57,789 bases of DNA from a virus, in the IMG/VR virus record IMGVR_UViG_3300005582_000010, positions 1 to 57,789 of that record; one strand, written 5' to 3'. The notes beneath the pieces were generated by a model, which saw only the letters and a list, made by a program, of their open reading frames with translations, was not told the DNA's origin and did no database searches. The position numbers and the translations under genes are program-made. Below, one piece after another: positions 3,986-22,742 of the stretch (position 1 is its first letter; each line of letters opens with the position of its first letter).

Positions 3986-5479
3986 ATGGAGATAGACGAA
4001 CTACTATTCGGTCCGGCAAAGCCCGACACCTCAGGTTGGTCGATACCAGCGTTAGCGATAGACCTGTTACCTCATCAGGAGGAAGCAGTGAAGTTTGCGA
4101 TAGCGAAACAGCAGACCTACCTAGCCCTAGACATGGGATTAGGGAAGACGGCATGTGCTATTGCGGTCATCGCTTCGGCACACCAAGCGTCAGCCACCCC
4201 AGCAATTATAATCGTGCCCCCCTCACTGAGGAGGACATGGCTTGAGGAGTTCAAGAAGTTTGCGCCACATCTAACGGTTAGAGAGTTACGTGGTCAAGCA
4301 AGTAAGCCCCTTGAACCTGCTGATGTTTACATCATTGGTGACTCCATCATCTCTTGCTGGGTTGATGACGCAACAGAAGATCCCAACACATTGCTCGGTA
4401 AGTTTCGGGTGATCGTTGTTGATGAGGCTCATCGCAGTAAGAACATGTCGGCATCACGCACTAGGGCAATCATTAAGTTGGCTAACACTTGCGACACCAT
4501 ACGAATACTTATGTCAGGTACGCCTACACCTAACGGGCGTAACCAAGAGATGGGGCCACAGATTGAATCGTTGGGTAGTACTGCTTGGGCAGGTGTAGGT
4601 GGTAAGGGAAAGTTTTGGAGTTACCACTGTCCTGTAGAGCGTGACCCCAATGGCAAACTTAATAAGTTTGGTAAGCGTGCCAACATTGATTCTCTTGGGC
4701 TTAATGAAGCCATGCTCTCATCATTCATGCTGAGGCGTAAGCGTGGTGACGTACTAGACCTACCCACCAAGGGTCGGGGCGCTGTCCATATAGAAGGATT
4801 AGGTAAGGCGGTTAGCGATTACAAGTTAGCCGAAGATGACCTGATCGCATACTTGGCTGGTGAGGGTAAAGAGTGGCGAGCCGCCGTTCGTAACGAAGCA
4901 CTAGTCAAACTAACTACCATGCGTAAGTTAGCGGGAGAGTGCAAGGTTAAGGGCGTAATAGAAAGGGCTAAGGAGTTCCTTAGGGAGACTAAGGATTACG
5001 ACGTAGTTCCTGGATTGCTAATCATTGCTGAGCACCACAGTGTCATGGGACCGTTAGTCACAGGGCTTGAGAAGTACGGGGTAGTTGCGTACAACGGAAC
5101 AATGAATGATGACGAGAAGGCCGAAGCAGTAAAAGACTTCAACTCAGGTAAAGCAAGGGTGTTTGTTGGGCAAATCAAATCAGCAGGTGTTGGGTTGACA
5201 TTGCATGGTGATGGTCGCAACCATCACGTAATCATCTGTCAGTTACCTTGGTCCCCTGCTGATATACAACAGGCCGAGGACAGAGTTCATCGGATTGGTC
5301 AGACGTCAGACGTCAACATTGAGATATGCCTAGCGAGCATTGACAATGTGTGGACAATTGACGAGCGCCTATGGGCGTTGTTAGAAGTAAAAGCATTCTC
5401 TGCTGGAGAGATCATTGACGGCAAGGGAGAGTTTCTTCTTGAGGAAATTCAAGACAACATCATCGACAGTTACAGATAA
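3986..5479 (+). CDS. SNF2-family DNA-dependent ATPase/helicase
   Basis: A 497-residue superfamily 2 ATPase of the SNF2/SMARCAL1 kind, expected to translocate on DNA and remodel protein-DNA complexes or anneal strands. Visible motifs in order: Q-like LLPHQEEAV (about 28), Walker A DMGLGKT (49-55), Ia IIVPPSL, DEAH box (146-149), III SGTPTPNG, IV-V in the second RecA domain (VAYNG, SAGVGLTL) and motif VI QAEDRVHRIGQ (about 428). It appears complete and intact. The ribosome site is AGGAGAACCAC. It precedes the MoxR/VWA pair, separated by one small gene. A second, diverged SNF2-like helicase lies in the replication block, so the two probably have different jobs. Confidence 0.93.
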   Translation: MEIDELLFGPAKPDTSGWSIPALAIDLLPHQEEAVKFAIAKQQTYLALDMGLGKTACAIAVIASAHQASATPAIIIVPPSLRRTWLEEFKKFAPHLTVRELRGQASKPLEPADVYIIGDSIISCWVDDATEDPNTLLGKFRVIVVDEAHRSKNMSASRTRAIIKLANTCDTIRILMSGTPTPNGRNQEMGPQIESLGSTAWAGVGGKGKFWSYHCPVERDPNGKLNKFGKRANIDSLGLNEAMLSSFMLRRKRGDVLDLPTKGRGAVHIEGLGKAVSDYKLAEDDLIAYLAGEGKEWRAAVRNEALVKLTTMRKLAGECKVKGVIERAKEFLRETKDYDVVPGLLIIAEHHSVMGPLVTGLEKYGVVAYNGTMNDDEKAEAVKDFNSGKARVFVGQIKSAGVGLTLHGDGRNHHVIICQLPWSPADIQQAEDRVHRIGQTSDVNIEICLASIDNVWTIDERLWALLEVKAFSAGEIIDGKGEFLLEEIQDNIIDSYR

Positions 5480-16948: not shown

Positions 16949-17152
16949 TTAGACGTCCTTAGTAGTTAAACGTGGACGTTCTGGCTTTGGGCCAAAGAGC
17001 TGGTGCACACGGTCAGAGATGGCGTTTGTAATGGTACTGATATCCTCACCAGCTTGATTGCCAGCTAAAGCTTCACGACTTACGGGAATACGAGAACCTG
17101 GGGCAATGGGTTGACCATTAGCCCATAAGCCACGATTACGGGGAGCAGCCAT
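16949..17152 (-). CDS. Hypothetical protein, 67 aa
   Basis: A polar, basic N-terminus (MAAPRNRGLWANGQPI) followed by a helix (ISTITNAISDRVHQLFG) and a basic tail. Closely spaced with its neighbours, same strand. Unknown. Confidence 0.5.
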   Translation of the reverse strand: MAAPRNRGLWANGQPIAPGSRIPVSREALAGNQAGEDISTITNAISDRVHQLFGPKPERPRLTTKDV

Positions 17153-17164
17153 TAGTTGCTACCT

Positions 17165-17569
17165 TCAGTCATTCCAAGACGTCATCGGATCAAATGGGTT
17201 CATCCTTTTATCTGGAGGCGGTTGTTTAGTAACTGATTTTTTGCCGTAGTTACCCATAACAGAGGGCATCGAAGAAGGACGTTTAAGTTCTCTTTTAGCA
17301 GGTTTTCCTAAACTTGCCAATTTTTGGCCAGCGGCATCTTGCTCTGGGCTTCTAGGATTTGAAAAGGGGTCATAATCAGAATTGACTTCATTCCCATAGA
17401 TGCCACCTGTCCTTCCTTTATTACCTTCCTGTACCTGCCTAATTGAATCAATATTTTTACGTGCTACACGCTTTGAGGTAATACCGTGGTCGTTGGCAGT
17501 TTGCATGTCTTGACCAGTAAGTTGAGGGCGAGCGTTACGGCCCGCAATGCTTCTAATATTAAATGCCAT
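17165..17569 (-). CDS. Basic low-complexity protein; shares modules with two neighbours
   Basis: A 134-residue protein. Its N-terminus MAFNIRSIAGRN matches MAFNVRSILGRN of the gene at 17991-18554, and the ribosome-site region is nearly identical. Its next part (QDMQTANDHGITSKRVARKN) matches QDKETAAGFGITSKKGIKKN of the gene at 17581-17988. It is therefore a mosaic of its two neighbours. The rest is disordered, Pro/Lys/Asn-rich. Unknown role; possibly a virion-internal or nucleic-acid-binding protein. Confidence 0.65.
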   Translation of the reverse strand: MAFNIRSIAGRNARPQLTGQDMQTANDHGITSKRVARKNIDSIRQVQEGNKGRTGGIYGNEVNSDYDPFSNPRSPEQDAAGQKLASLGKPAKRELKRPSSMPSVMGNYGKKSVTKQPPPDKRMNPFDPMTSWND

Positions 17570-17581
17570 AATAGGCTCCTT
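17551..17581 (-). repeat. Duplicated gene-start segment, copy A
   Basis: Thirty-one nt covering the ribosome site AAGGAG, the start codon and the first six codons. It is 29/31 identical to copy B at 18536-18566; the two differences are both C/T. This indicates recent duplication or recombination between gene starts. Confidence 0.75.
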
Positions 17582-17988
17582 CAGTCGAATGGGTCTTGAT
17601 TTTTGTCAATAAGATTGTTATAACTTGTTTTTGATTCTTTTGCTTGAATTTTTTCAGGAGAATAACCAGACATTCCTTGTGATACTTTTTTTGCAGCCTT
17701 AGAAACACGTTGGCCAATTGATGGTTTGTCTGCTTTCCCTGCAGCGGTAAGTTTTTCAACATGCGGTTTAGCGGTATTTCCAAAATCTTTACCGTTATTT
17801 GCGTCATGCCAATCTTGTGAAACTGCACCTTGCATCCCACGAATGCTTTCCATGTTCTTTTTAATACCTTTTTTTGACGTAATGCCAAAACCAGCTGCAG
17901 TTTCTTTGTCTTGCACGGTAACGGAAGTGCGTCTTGTATGTGAGTCGCGGTCCGTTTTGCGTCCTAGATGCTTAGCTTGAGAGTCCAT
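17581..17988 (-). CDS. Basic low-complexity protein sharing the GITSK module
   Basis: A 135-residue, Lys-rich, mostly disordered protein, start after AAGGAGATAATC. Residues about 24-50 (VQDKETAAGFGITSKKGIKK and following) align with the gene immediately downstream, with conserved GITSK, basic KN and (I/M)(D/E)SIR. It lacks the MAFN N-terminus of that paralogue. Ends in DPFD, echoing DPFS/NPFDP in the paralogue. Function unknown. Confidence 0.65.
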   Translation of the reverse strand: MDSQAKHLGRKTDRDSHTRRTSVTVQDKETAAGFGITSKKGIKKNMESIRGMQGAVSQDWHDANNGKDFGNTAKPHVEKLTAAGKADKPSIGQRVSKAAKKVSQGMSGYSPEKIQAKESKTSYNNLIDKNQDPFD

Positions 17989-17990
17989 GA

Positions 17991-18554
17991 TTATCTCCTT
18001 GGTGATGCGCCCGGTGGGCGTTCGTTTTGCGAGGTGTTAGCGCGACCTTTGCCAGCTACCTTTTCAGTAGAGCTGGTGAGGGGTTGATAGAACTTAGCAT
18101 CCATTTTACCAGTTTTATCGTACTTAACATCATTACCTTTAGCGCGATCTTGTGTTTGAGTTTGGAAAGGACTGATCTTTCTCTTACTCATTTCATTAAT
18201 AGAGTCTTTAACTCTAGGGTCATTTAGATCAACTCCGCCACTTCCCTTTTTTGATTGTGCCTTTGGGTCAGTAGAAGTTTTTTGCCAATGGTCTGTAAGT
18301 TGCTTATCATCCATTGCTTCAAGATGGTCACGAGTCATCTCACTGTGGGGGCCAGCAACTCGACCTGATTCAGTACGATCAATGTTAGGTTTAGCAGGTG
18401 CAGTTGATTGGCGTTGAGTAGAAGCAGATGGTCGTTCTTTTGACATTTCTCCTGGTAATTTACGACGAGGAGCGGGCCTGTCTTCTGAGCGTTGAGGCGC
18501 TGGAGATTGCTGTGCACTATTACGACCCAAAATACTTCTAACATTAAACGCCAT
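17991..18554 (-). CDS. Disordered basic protein with MAFNVRSILGRN N-terminus
   Basis: The start at 18554 was chosen because AAGGAGCCTATT precedes it and because the N-terminus matches the paralogue; a longer frame to 18611 has no support. The 187-residue product is Ser/Pro/Lys/Arg-rich and almost entirely low complexity with high predicted disorder. Member of the cassette of shuffled small proteins. Confidence 0.65.
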   Translation of the reverse strand: MAFNVRSILGRNSAQQSPAPQRSEDRPAPRRKLPGEMSKERPSASTQRQSTAPAKPNIDRTESGRVAGPHSEMTRDHLEAMDDKQLTDHWQKTSTDPKAQSKKGSGGVDLNDPRVKDSINEMSKRKISPFQTQTQDRAKGNDVKYDKTGKMDAKFYQPLTSSTEKVAGKGRANTSQNERPPGASPRR

Positions 18555-18566
18555 AATAGGCTCCTT
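18536..18566 (-). repeat. Duplicated gene-start segment, copy B
   Basis: Partner of the segment at 17551-17581 (29 of 31 positions equal), again spanning ribosome site, ATG and first codons. The identity extends into non-coding bases, so it is not explained by protein conservation alone. Confidence 0.75.
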
Positions 18567-18607: not shown

Positions 18608-19120
18608 TCACTTCCAGGGTGGGGCTAGTGTTTTGAGCATTGACTGACGCTGACGGTCAATGATCTCTTGCTGGGGCCTGTCTAAGCCACGGGGGATGCC
18701 TCTTGGGCCAGCCTTACCATCATTGGTCAAACGTACTGGTTCTGCTCCTGGGGGCGCAAACTTGAGCCCCTGAGACTCAAGTTGTAAGCCTGTGTAAAGA
18801 TTAAACTCGTCTGGCCACATGTAATCGCCTTGATTGATACGTTCGCCCTTATGAACACCACGGGTATAAGGTACTTTGTTCATGCGGTGTACTGCGTTAA
18901 CTATCTTGTCTTGGCGCCTATTAGACGACATAGTGCCAAGGTATCCGTCTGGATACTGAGTGTCTGGACCAGCACCAAATGAAGCTAACTGGGCATCCTT
19001 GCTGTTACGGAATACAGGGGCAGGACCCATAGACGCTGAGGTTACAGCACCTGCGTTAGGGTCATAGCTTCCGCCCCAGTGAGTAAAGGCTTGCTGACTA
19101 GCGGGCACTTGAAGCGCCAC
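18608..19120 (-). CDS. Hypothetical protein, 170 aa
   Basis: A GTG start at 19120; an in-frame stop lies just upstream, so no longer frame exists. The start lacks a clear ribosome site and overlaps the end of the Lys-rich micro-gene by 23 nt, so coupling is possible. The protein is more ordered than its neighbours (GDYMWPDEFNLYTGLQLES) with a helical C-terminus. Unknown. Confidence 0.6.
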   Translation of the reverse strand: MALQVPASQQAFTHWGGSYDPNAGAVTSASMGPAPVFRNSKDAQLASFGAGPDTQYPDGYLGTMSSNRRQDKIVNAVHRMNKVPYTRGVHKGERINQGDYMWPDEFNLYTGLQLESQGLKFAPPGAEPVRLTNDGKAGPRGIPRGLDRPQQEIIDRQRQSMLKTLAPPWK

Positions 19121-19430: not shown

Positions 19431-22394
19431 TTACTTAAACTGCCCACTACTTAAATTGGTGTTTTTCTTATACGCGCTAGGTGCCATAGCTTCTAAATCT
19501 GCGTCATCATTAATTGAATAACCTGCCAGCATTGGGATGCCTTTTCCAGAGACTGTTTCAGTTCTGCTTGTACCTGAATCATTGTTATTAGGCACTGAAA
19601 CTTCCGCTTCTCCGTACTTTCCAGTTTTTTCACTAAACATTGCGCCTTGGCTACCATAAAAACCAGGTCCAGCAGTTTTAGCGTCATAACCTGAATGGAA
19701 TTTAGAGGAACCTCTTCCACCCGGAAGGGCTTCGTAGTCTTTAATAAAATCAACTGTGTCGTAGTCTGCGTTTGCTCCTGTACGCAAAGCTTTACGAGTA
19801 TCATTAAGCTCTGTTGCCTCAAGATTTCGAGCATCTACACCAGGTTTTGCGATCTTAGCAAGCCTTGCATAACGCGTGCTTTCCTCAACTTTTCTTGCTG
19901 CTGAAATTCCTGCTTCGCGCCTTGGACGAGCAGCAGCACGTCGCATGTTTTCTGGTGTAGCTGGTACGCCACCAGAGCCTTGAATGTTGCCAAACTGGCT
20001 ACTTCGGACCATGCTTGTAGGGCCAGTTGACCCATCGTTTACCACTACTTCAGTACCAGGTGCCAAGCTATTCCATGGGGTTCTGCCGCTTGCTTCCCTA
20101 GTTGACATTGCAGCAATGCTGGATGCAGTTGACATAGCTATGGGTGCAACATCTCGGGTGCTTGGGCCACTAGGTGTTTGAAACTGCACACTGATAGATC
20201 CAGGAATGCGTGCTGCTGTGGGAAAGGCAACCGATTCACCAGTTGCTGTTCCACGACCAAAGGGGTTGTCTTCACTCTTTACGCCGTCAGTTGCCCTGAC
20301 AGGAATTGAGCCCACATCACCTGAAGCAGTTGTAATGCTCATTGCACCAGGTTGCCCTGGGCGCCTGTCAAAAACTGGAGCAAGACGGGGCTGTTTATCT
20401 TTCATAATAGACAATTGATCAGATGTTGGCTGTGCTGCCCCTGAACCAGTTAGCGGGATTTTACCCACTACCGCCATAACACCTTTACCAGTAACTGGTT
20501 GACCAGTTGTTGGATCTGTAACTTTGTTTCGGTCAGCTAATGCACGTGCGCTAGGACCAGTTGATTGTGGTTGCATGAAGTCATTTGCAATAGTTCTGTT
20601 GGTTGCTTCGTTAATTGCCAAAGTACGAGCAGCTTCTTTGCCAGTTTGTTCCGTAATTGCTTCAACTGGAGCTGTCCTTGTTGAACCACGGCGACGCCTG
20701 CTTACTGAAGCAACTTCTGTTGCTACGGCTTTATTTGCGCTTGCAACTTTTCCAAAAGCTTCGTTACTACTATCACGAACCGTAGTTCCATTAATTTTAG
20801 TTGACTTTTCTTCTGCTTCGGATATTGGGGAGTTAGGGTGCGCTCCAGCAGCAAGTAAGCGGCTTTCAAGGTTTTTACGTGCTGAGTCATTTGGCAAACT
20901 TGCCAAGTGAACATTTAAACGTTCACGCCAATCTCGTCCTTCAAGGATTGGAGATTCATCTTCAACCCCTCCAGCCGTAGTGTTTGTGCGGTTTCCGCCT
21001 TGTCCAGTACTAACCTCTGTCCTACGGCTTTTTGCATTAGCAACAGATTGGCGAATTTCGTTATAAAGATCTGGTTGATCAGATAACAAATCTTTAAAAC
21101 TATAACCCTGTAGGTCGGTAATGTCTTCTGGAATCGCTGTTTTTGAGTCAGCAGCTACCGTTTTGGCAACATTAGCTTTAAATTCTGGGGTAACTTCAGA
21201 AGAACCAACAGTTCCTCCAATGTAACCACCTGTGCGAGACGGGGCGCCTTTAACTACTTGTTGAGCCAAGTTGCCCATGCTCTTTTTATCTTCTGAAGTC
21301 ATGGTGCTAAGAACTTCATCACGGCCAACTGCTGTTTGTGCAATACGGGTGGTAGCCTCAACTTTTCCGCCTAATGCGGCATTTGCACCACCTGTAACCT
21401 CAGTAATTTTGTAAGGCTTACCAACGTCTGCCGGTGTGGGGGCAGTTCCCGTGGTGTAAACAGCGTCTTTTGTCATGCCTTCAACAGGTGCGCCACGACC
21501 AGTTGAACCAGGGCCTTGACGAGTTTCGTCAATACCTTGAATAGCTTCTCCTGCTTTTAACGCAGCTTCTGCTTCTTTCCTATTTCGCGTTGTATCTTTA
21601 TCTACAGATTTTGCCAATCTGCGTACGGGGCCAAGACGATTAGCACGTGAAACAGCACCTTGTACTAATTTACCAGACTTGTCTCGACCTACAATACCCA
21701 AACCTTGGCGCGGGTTTGCGGTACGAATAGGTGCTTGTTTTACTGGAAGATCCCCACCAGTAACTGCGGCTGCTTCAACTGCTGCCGGGGACGTGTCAAC
21801 ATCATCAGTAAAGAAACGCTGACGTGCTTCTGCTGACCTTAGGTCAGTTGCAATGCGTCCTGATTGCACGCCTTCAATAACTGACTTACGTTGACGACCT
21901 TGGCTAACTTTTGCGGCAGATTTGCGTTCTGCCTGTTGCTCTGGGGTAACGGCTTTTTTGGGATCTAAAACAGGAATTCCTGTGTCGGTAAAGCCTACTT
22001 CAACCTCTTTGGGTTCTTTGAGTTTTGCACCACTTTTAGCAAGTGCACTAGCAACACTTGAAAGAGTGCCTTTTGTTTGAGTATCATCAGAAAGACCAGA
22101 AGATCTACCAGGACCAGAACCAGCTAATTGAGTTGCTCTTGCTTCTTTTGGAAGGGTAGGAGCTTCTAATTCTTTTTTTGTCGTTTTCTTTGATTGGTTT
22201 AAACGGTATGTTCCATAACTGTCGTCACCTAAGAGGTCTACACCACCGACGGTATTGGCAGTCCTTCGTTCAGCTTTTGCTGGCTTAGCAATACGACCTG
22301 CGCGTGGAAGTCCTGACTGAGTTACACCACTCTTACGGTTTGCAGCGTTTACTGGCTTTGCTAATTCAGCTTTGGTTGCTTTACGACTTGCCAT
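19431..22394 (-). CDS. Very large low-complexity protein, 987 aa, unknown
   Basis: The largest gene in the window. Almost all of the sequence is Ala/Gly/Ser/Thr/Arg/Lys-rich with no hydrophobic core pattern over long stretches, no membrane segment and no recognised catalytic motif. The N-terminus is Lys/Ala-rich (MASRKATKAELAKPVNAANR). The last ~150 residues are more structured (TVDFIKDYEALPGGRGSSKF, AGPGFYGSQGAMF) and may be a folded domain. Preceded by GAGGTAAATA. The size, disorder and basic charge suggest a virion-packaged or ejected protein, or a scaffold; this is inference from composition. Confidence 0.6.
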   Translation of the reverse strand: MASRKATKAELAKPVNAANRKSGVTQSGLPRAGRIAKPAKAERRTANTVGGVDLLGDDSYGTYRLNQSKKTTKKELEAPTLPKEARATQLAGSGPGRSSGLSDDTQTKGTLSSVASALAKSGAKLKEPKEVEVGFTDTGIPVLDPKKAVTPEQQAERKSAAKVSQGRQRKSVIEGVQSGRIATDLRSAEARQRFFTDDVDTSPAAVEAAAVTGGDLPVKQAPIRTANPRQGLGIVGRDKSGKLVQGAVSRANRLGPVRRLAKSVDKDTTRNRKEAEAALKAGEAIQGIDETRQGPGSTGRGAPVEGMTKDAVYTTGTAPTPADVGKPYKITEVTGGANAALGGKVEATTRIAQTAVGRDEVLSTMTSEDKKSMGNLAQQVVKGAPSRTGGYIGGTVGSSEVTPEFKANVAKTVAADSKTAIPEDITDLQGYSFKDLLSDQPDLYNEIRQSVANAKSRRTEVSTGQGGNRTNTTAGGVEDESPILEGRDWRERLNVHLASLPNDSARKNLESRLLAAGAHPNSPISEAEEKSTKINGTTVRDSSNEAFGKVASANKAVATEVASVSRRRRGSTRTAPVEAITEQTGKEAARTLAINEATNRTIANDFMQPQSTGPSARALADRNKVTDPTTGQPVTGKGVMAVVGKIPLTGSGAAQPTSDQLSIMKDKQPRLAPVFDRRPGQPGAMSITTASGDVGSIPVRATDGVKSEDNPFGRGTATGESVAFPTAARIPGSISVQFQTPSGPSTRDVAPIAMSTASSIAAMSTREASGRTPWNSLAPGTEVVVNDGSTGPTSMVRSSQFGNIQGSGGVPATPENMRRAAARPRREAGISAARKVEESTRYARLAKIAKPGVDARNLEATELNDTRKALRTGANADYDTVDFIKDYEALPGGRGSSKFHSGYDAKTAGPGFYGSQGAMFSEKTGKYGEAEVSVPNNNDSGTSRTETVSGKGIPMLAGYSINDDADLEAMAPSAYKKNTNLSSGQFK

Positions 22395-22457: not shown

Positions 22458-22742
22458 TCAGCGGGCTACGGGTTTGAATGTGATAGCTGAAATGGTTTCA
22501 CCATTTTCACCTTGGATATCATCAAAGCCAATAACAAATAATAAGTCAATACCACGAGGTGCTACAAAGCCACGAGCAATTGCACAAGCCTTAGTGGCTT
22601 GATTAACTGCACTAGCTCCAATGGCACGGATCTTGGGGGAATGCCCTGCTACTACTGAGCGAGCAACAATAGACCCGACACTCTGGGGGTTGCTGGTTCC
22701 TGATACTTTGACGATATCGTCAACTGGTTGTTCTTCTGACAT
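22458..22742 (-). CDS. SpoVS/Alba-like protein
   Basis: A 94-residue protein matching the Stage V sporulation protein S family across its length: KVSGTSNPQSVGS, then KIRAIGASAVNQATKACAIA and GFVAPRGIDLL, the family's most conserved stretch. SpoVS is an Alba-like fold thought to bind nucleic acid; in Bacillus it affects septation and sporulation. A phage copy may act on host development or on phage nucleic acid. It sits just before the recombination genes. Confidence 0.88.
   Translation of the reverse strand: MSEEQPVDDIVKVSGTSNPQSVGSIVARSVVAGHSPKIRAIGASAVNQATKACAIARGFVAPRGIDLLFVIGFDDIQGENGETISAITFKPVAR

Follow-up and report, generated by a model that had tools for sequence, protein, structure and literature searches.

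Small proteins in a variable cassette of a contractile-tailed phage group exchange short N-terminal tags, which may be prohead-targeting signals

We find that the small proteins encoded in a variable cassette of a contractile-tailed phage group reuse one another's modules, and that this reuse is concentrated at the N-terminus. The case that led to this finding is a run of three neighbouring genes, here called A, B and C, in the window (the whole 57.8-kb virus record that was analysed). Relatives carry the same N-terminal segments, or tags, on other protein bodies, and one tag family recurs among the head genes of a related phage group. We tentatively propose that the tags direct swappable proteins into the prohead.

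Results

The phage and its relatives

The window comes from a contractile-tailed phage, with recognisable sheath, tube, baseplate and major head proteins, a DNA polymerase, DnaB and a RecA-like protein. A 73-kb IMG/VR contig, 3300027608_000024, carries A, B and C unchanged. The closest cultured relatives that we found are the Streptomyces phages pSt2308, BRock, LuckySocke, Alone3 and GiJojo, with an MCP about 60% identical. BRock, whose announcement reports the genome, its GC content and gene counts (PMC7453282), is classified as Borockvirus. Homologues of RecA and of the genes flanking the cassette are present in Borockvirus and its kin (BRock, LuckySocke, GiJojo and pSt2308). Among cultured phages we found no member of the window's own group; the kinship with Streptomyces phages hints at an actinobacterium as host.

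Genes A, B and C share starts and bodies in different pairings

The three genes have the following features (L and G numbers, here and below, are our handles for loci and whole records).

17165..17569, minus strand: gene A, 134 aa; tag 1 on a B-like body
17581..17988, minus strand: gene B, 135 aa; MDSQAKH-type N-terminus on an A-like body
17991..18554, minus strand: gene C, 187 aa from its ATG; tag-1 N-terminus
17534..17569, minus strand: tag 1 on A, MAFNIRSIAGRN
18519..18554, minus strand: tag 1 on C, MAFNVRSILGRN
17565..17581, minus strand: ribosome site and start of A, 17 nt, identical to those of C
18550..18566, minus strand: ribosome site and start of C, 17 nt, identical to those of A
17189..17530, minus strand: A body shared with B, including the GITSK...SIR segment (A residues 29-44)
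17584..17931, minus strand: B body, paralogous to the A body
17923..17988, minus strand: N-terminal tag of B, MDSQAKHLGRKTDRDSHTRRTS; similar tags stand on two different bodies in L091

A preliminary description of the window had placed these genes at 17165, 17581 and 17991, and all three are real ORFs there, on the minus strand; for C the ORF list gives a longer form with a GTG start at 18611. The common start of A and C that it also reported, MAFN(I/V)RSI(A/L)GRN, spans 12 residues, with nothing alignable beyond. At the protein level the match is modest, with a local score of 57 that 6 of 500 shuffles attain, and it is the DNA that bears the shared start out: 47 aligned positions, running from the Shine-Dalgarno sequence into the gene, score 35, against 16 for the best of 200 shuffles. 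Within this stretch 17 nucleotides are identical, and the window contains the 17-mer AAGGAGCCTATTATGGC at A and at C and nowhere else (chance mean 0.10, allowing up to three mismatches).

The match between A and B is of a different extent. It scores 101 (shuffled mean 33; reached by none of 500 shuffles) and joins A residues 14-127 with B residues 20-135. The GITSK segment, described earlier as the part common to A and B, is indeed shared, but the likeness is not limited to it. Because the alignment spans nearly the whole of both bodies, A and B are best described as paralogues with different N-termini. None of the three proteins matched a PHROGs or Pfam family at E <= 0.1, and a tblastn search of cultured phages with A gave a single match, at E 0.9.

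A slot between conserved genes holds changing small genes

The genes lie between two conserved genes, together with a fourth.

18608..19120, minus strand: conserved gene on the upstream side, homologue of gp177 of Streptomyces phage LuckySocke
16643..16945, minus strand: conserved gene on the downstream side, with a weak, remote match to LuckySocke gp178
16949..17152, minus strand: fourth cassette gene, 67 aa

We collected 105 loci by searches with A, B, the 16643 gene (23 loci) and RecA (best 80 of 224). Both flanking genes are present in 49 of the 105, with 35 distinct sequences between them (the RecA part being the best 80 of 224). The slot holds one to eight small ORFs by our calls, and often little is common between phages. 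In the Borockvirus kin, by contrast, it is empty in the four genomes viewed: in LuckySocke, BRock, pSt2308 and GiJojo the flank homologues either have 2 nt between them or share 4 nt. The 18608 product is clearly homologous to gp177, and the 15831 product strongly so to gp180, whereas gp178 matches the 16643 product weakly (hmmsearch E 2.6e-5 to 8.7e-5 among 12 proteins searched; hhalign probability 61, E 8e-5). The start of the fourth cassette gene, MAAPRNRGLWANGxPIAPGSR, also stands on other bodies in L008 and L033.

Annotation of the region is sparse. Pfam and PHROG scans of most cassette neighbours returned no informative family; the small cassette proteins that were scanned had no Pfam family above cut-off and a single PHROGs match, to a family of unknown function. 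An AlphaFold model of the 18608 product was unusable (pLDDT 52, pTM 0.15). In the window's group the cassette sits outside the head module, with a SpoVS gene on one side and a DpdA-like gene on the other, and in LuckySocke lysis genes follow the corresponding place.

Several observations concern these surroundings. The SpoVS-family protein (window 22458-22742; Pfam E 7e-21) has matches in 75 of the 105 loci, and at the corresponding place BRock has a gene annotated as a sporulation protein. The product of window 13450-14886 matches the queuine tRNA-ribosyltransferase PHROG (E 1.8e-36); GiJojo, in the same gene order further downstream, has a gene annotated as a dpdA-like tRNA-guanine transglycosylase. 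Presumably this dpdA-like gene and its GiJojo counterpart would fit a modified phage DNA. Adjoining the cassette, window 19431-22394 encodes an apparently disordered 987-aa protein with matches in only 5 of the 105 loci, three of which are one contig; since its matches are few and its neighbours widely conserved, it may be a second variable position. Finally, a small basic protein of the type MPW..xDAxKxxKKADTxxEK.. is often among the first cassette genes (L009 7234, L011 6278, L014 594, L023 859, L085 16284 and L091 16622); the one scanned had no family above cut-off.

Reuse is concentrated in the first residues

For a survey of module reuse we divided each of 119 distinct ORFs, from the 35 distinct cassettes, into an N-terminus (first 22 residues) and a body (the rest) and compared all 7021 pairs. 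In 131 pairs the N-termini alone are alike, the bodies being at background (about 3.5 expected); in 42 the bodies alone are alike (about 0.7 expected), and in 121 both are. These pair counts are not independent, as related phages repeat. We called the ORFs with a preference for ribosome sites and kept doubtful ones, among them ORFs of L017 and L025 that begin with TTG. Part of the 42 body-only pairs, L020/L021 and L013/L017 among them, may be due to start calls or truncated frames and not to swaps. As a control, 22-residue segments were compared in the 89 proteins of at least 66 residues (3916 pairs). Segment-reuse pairs number 115 for residues 2-23 (62 proteins), 5 for residues 23-44, 11 for the middle and 9 for the C-terminus.

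Individual bodies illustrate the exchange. The A/B body stands behind tag 1 (A, L009, L042), MDSQAKH (B) and MALFKRKP (L011, L012), and the C body behind tag 1 (C, L006, L007) or MFKKNSKAK (L012, L042). In further examples, an SAESTGGGxxDS body follows starts of the MAKGQDS, MPHSPEHM, MDSQARH and MARGKDT types, and an NKGLxxLGxPE body follows MPRGEDT in L008 and MDSQAKH in L091. The suggestion that recombination builds new proteins in this cassette therefore holds for many relatives, in which N-terminal modules have been exchanged: the same segments recur there in other combinations, and their similarity does not fall to background.

The bodies themselves are diverse. By eye, several contain CxxC pairs resembling small zinc ribbons and many look disordered. 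One recurring body (L011 6852-7283) gave a low-confidence OB-like AlphaFold model (pLDDT 56, pTM 0.47), whose best PDB match, among OB-like folds, is not significant (E 0.04). A second short motif, such as DDAPPHGIPRP, has 17 copies in 12 cassette proteins, sometimes two per protein (cassettes of L008, L011, L013, L017, L023, L026, L027, L033, L064, L082, L104 and L105); the same pattern has no match in the window.

B is the likelier product of a swap

The reading of A as a fusion of the start of C with the middle of B proves too simple, as tag 1 or a closely similar tag is present on the A body in L009 and L042. That fusion is not favoured, and the C body occurs with another start in L012 and L042. 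In an unrooted tree of six A/B bodies, B is the neighbour of A, at modest support (0.80 / 70). Given that tag 1 is already on the A body in relatives and that B adjoins A in the tree, B, with its MDSQAKH start, is more probably the swapped copy than A.

Tag 2, a second tag family considered below, is represented by a first model with an 8-bit line. The start of B, MDSQAKHLGRKTDR, scores 4.8 bits with that model and so falls below the line, while its close relatives in L127 and L128, which are the contigs of L092 and L091, reach 14.5-15.0 and 8.6 bits. An iterated tag-2 model includes B and was trained on two of the L127/L128 relatives; profile A6 has no match in G001, the 73-kb record containing B. 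As judged from sequence, then, B belongs to a tag-2 superfamily only via intermediates, and A and C carry tag 1. A and B being copies of one body with two tag types, the tags may be interchangeable, or may be alternative addresses.

Tag 1 is kept as a peptide and was found in cassettes only

Among eleven tag-1 genes, 605 codon comparisons gave 225 identical codons, 199 synonymous ones and 181 with a different residue, and the DNA upstream of these genes mostly differs. The peptide is retained although its codons have diverged, so it is the peptide that is selected. The part of the preliminary description that saw a reused targeting or packaging signal is thus upheld as to reuse, the start behaving as a reused peptide signal; the matter of destination is taken up in the Discussion.

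A DNA pattern for tag 1, which is rare, found 6 contigs among the 2.9 million of IMG/VR; all are from the window's phage group and were already among the loci of the 16643 and RecA searches. In 18 whole records a tag-1 profile has 15 matches, in 11 records, all of them in cassettes by coordinates. Since the 13 rows of the profile come from such cassette genes, the news in this result is only the absence elsewhere: in these 18 records tag 1 was never found in head modules.

Tag 2 recurs among the head genes of a related phage group

The second tag family, MxxGxDTxxHPxRxVxR, occurs in cassettes of the window's group and recurs in a related phage group. In 22 chosen rows M1, G4, T7, P11, R13 and V15 are invariant. 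A DNA pattern for MxxGxDxxxHPxR-like starts has 61 sites on 47 contigs, 35 of which carry hallmark genes of the window's group; 7 of the remaining 12 have terminase, portal or MCP homologues of the related group. An eighth, L151, with no head gene in view, is the same contig as portal locus L210; the pattern matches in L139, L141 and L158 look like chance, and the twelfth contig is L168.

The first tag-2 model was trained on 9 cassette N-termini only and run on 30-residue N-termini. At 8 bits or more it finds 83 distinct N-termini (training sequences and a few alternative starts included) and none among shuffled sequences; 50 column-permuted decoys, run on 35-residue N-termini, have a mean of 2.4 and at most 8 matches.

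The gene order in the related group is terminase, small genes, portal, scaffold-like gene, MCP. The scaffold-like gene, which has no PHROG match, is named for its place, where LuckySocke has a gene annotated as a scaffolding protein. As far as the contigs show, tagged genes lie within the terminase-portal stretch in L133, L136, L148, L152, L157 and L172. For instance, L172 has three tandem tagged genes upstream of portal, scaffold-like gene and MCP, and in L157 a tagged gene lies 26 nt before the portal gene. L171, found by the tag pattern, has its tagged genes about 7 kb upstream of the terminase.

L171, 12024-12751, reverse strand: tag-2 genes, one with a CxxC...CxxC body

For a view of position we took 80 portal loci, the best 80 of at least 599 confirmed, which were picked without regard to tags, by a portal query that came from the tag-bearing contig L172. 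Because the iterated model was trained partly on matches from portal loci, the positional claim uses the first model. Among these best 80 of at least 599 loci it finds 20 tagged genes in 14 loci; all 20 are upstream of the portal gene and on the same strand, and none is downstream, with 442 kb searched downstream and 394 kb upstream. Where terminase and portal are both in view within this set, 9 of 9 tagged genes lie between them.

Within loci that have both cassette flanks, 91 of 100 tag-2 matches (a number that includes loci overlapping on one contig) fall inside the slot; three genes account for the other 9. Whole records have 28 matches, in 14 of 20 records; those off the slot are in G004, G005 and G008, with further matches beside the slot in G011 and away from the portal in G016. 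Even phages with a portal no more than 55-58% identical to that of G006, which belongs to the window's group, retain tag 2. In LuckySocke, the only Borockvirus searched, head genes are present and neither tag has a match, and a search of cultured phages with a tag-2 peptide found no match.

Two occurrences outside the cassette can be described further. In L259 (4806-5327; G005:C1 near 77036) a tag-2-like stretch, GRQDTGSHPGRKTDR, is internal to a proline-rich 173-aa protein far from the cassette. In L257 a tag-2 protein, MARGEDTSRHPGRQVTR..., is encoded outside the cassette (reverse strand, 4530-4829; G008:C1 near 13421), and the 9-kb stretch around it has no match to the window query genes.

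Discussion

Based on these data, we propose that the tags are prohead-targeting peptides on swappable small genes in an exchange slot, a proposal to which we give slightly less than an even chance of being right. It is the best single explanation in light of the terminase, portal and scaffold-like neighbourhood, the N-termini shared by unrelated bodies, and precedent in T4, P1 and giant phages. The slot between 18608 and 16643 would be the site of exchange, each gene consisting of a short N-terminal address tag and a changing body. Recombination would swap tags and bodies, and A, B and C would be a snapshot of this process, with tag 1 on the bodies of both C and A, and a copy of the A body behind an MDSQAKH-type tag. 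The cassette genes would be expressed late, and the tags would attach to a part of the head under assembly, whether scaffold, portal or capsid protein, and so bring their proteins into the prohead. At infection these proteins would travel with the DNA and act on the host, their changing bodies serving as the tools delivered. Several facts count against prohead targeting: the cassette of the window's group lies outside the head module, tag 1 is found in cassettes only, and B reaches the tag-2 superfamily only via intermediates. In L171 the tagged genes stand off the terminase-portal stretch and L151 shows no head gene; some tag-2 genes lie outside the slot, a tag-2 gene is present in only 14 of the best 80 of at least 599 portal loci, and LuckySocke has head genes with neither tag. 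The link of tag 2 to the head-gene region of the related group favours the packaging idea, and a reused packaging signal is plausible.

The nearest likeness is to phage T4, whose internal proteins IPI, IPII and IPIII are described in PMC9026906 as otherwise different small proteins with a common short N-terminal peptide, the CTS; the same review suggests that the CTS lets T4-like phages place various proteins in heads. The T4 CTS is a propeptide removed by gp21 during head maturation, whereas here Peptidase_S78 was found in none of 11 records (the control found it in 4 of 14 genomes). A search for Peptidase_S77 had no match anywhere, controls included, and PHROGs gave no protease among 10 scanned ORFs of the G006 head region. 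T4-style removal of the tag is thus unsupported, and without an S78 protease any tag would probably stay on. Also unlike T4, there are at least two tag families here, many more bodies, and exchange of tags between copies of one body.

Other systems share single features. The first 30 residues of P1 DarB suffice to bring a reporter into the head, according to PMC9024508, and the tags here are of similar length; in that work the P1 Dar N-termini are said to lack a consensus, whereas here a strong consensus crosses unrelated bodies. N-terminal propeptides of the giant phage SPN3US are inferred, in PMC5694885, to target ejection proteins into the prohead, but they are cleaved and several exceed 100 residues, unlike the tags here. 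The recombination that yields diverse C-terminal parts in polymorphic toxin systems, as outlined in PMC3482391, is a further likeness; those toxins are not phage virion proteins, and no toxin family was matched among the cassette proteins scanned.

The strongest competitor is that the cassette is an anti-defence or host-takeover island, whose tags dock on a common partner (polymerase, nucleoid or nuclease) in the infected cell and not in the virion. We judge this unlikely, though it deserves real weight: the proteins are small and hypervariable, those scanned have no Pfam family and one PHROG match, and swapping of bodies fits an arms race. The position of all 20 tagged genes on the terminase side of the portal, among the best 80 of at least 599 loci, points instead to head assembly. 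The two roles can also overlap, since packaged T4 internal proteins help to defeat restriction, as stated in PMC9024508.

Less probable still, the tags could be short basic DNA-binding peptides, with any entry into the head made by riding on the DNA. Arg, Lys and His abound in tag 2, the last residues of tag 1 are GRN, and to the eye the bodies of A, B and C look rich in Lys and Arg. The invariant positions of tag 2, however, are more specific than bulk DNA binding needs, and in tag 1 one or two Arg stand among largely hydrophobic residues.

We think it quite doubtful that the shared start is a seam of recombination at the DNA level, made of ribosome site and first codons, with the peptide idle. 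The 17 nucleotides common to A and C do cover the ribosome site and start codon, the tag-1 genes L007a and L033b have similar AAGGAGCC sites in front of them, and such a seam may have aided the exchange between A and C. As the whole story it is largely refuted, and we reject it on codon divergence: of the 424 codon comparisons in which the residue is the same, 199 show different codons, the DNA before the genes is mostly unlike, and MDSQA[KR]H is kept in B, L091a and L091b with three different serine codons (TCT, AGT and AGC). The retention of tag 2 in phages with so divergent a portal also argues against a seam. Chance likeness of low-complexity small proteins would account for an A-C protein match that 6 of 500 shuffles reach, but we consider it next to impossible in view of the shuffle counts, the other-segment control and the decoy models.

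Returning to prohead targeting, the fuller picture, which we offer a shade more cautiously than the proposal itself, is of scaffold-type heads, in which no protease was detected, where interchangeable zip codes (at least MAFN[IVL]xSIxGRN and MxxGxDTxxHPxRxVxR) would load a rotating kit of unrelated proteins; the C/B/A slot would be the site where tag and cargo are assembled. The exact tag strings had no match in the literature, and the titles and abstract openings searched did not describe these tags. Should the tags direct proteins to the head, they would be a new loading signal, portable and perhaps independent of cleavage, and would provide a sequence rule for recognising proteins that are packaged, and perhaps injected, by uncultured phages; the accessory proteins of such phages are otherwise without annotation. 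Whatever the destination, the locus is a clear natural case of recombining N-terminal signals and bodies, with many combinations to compare.
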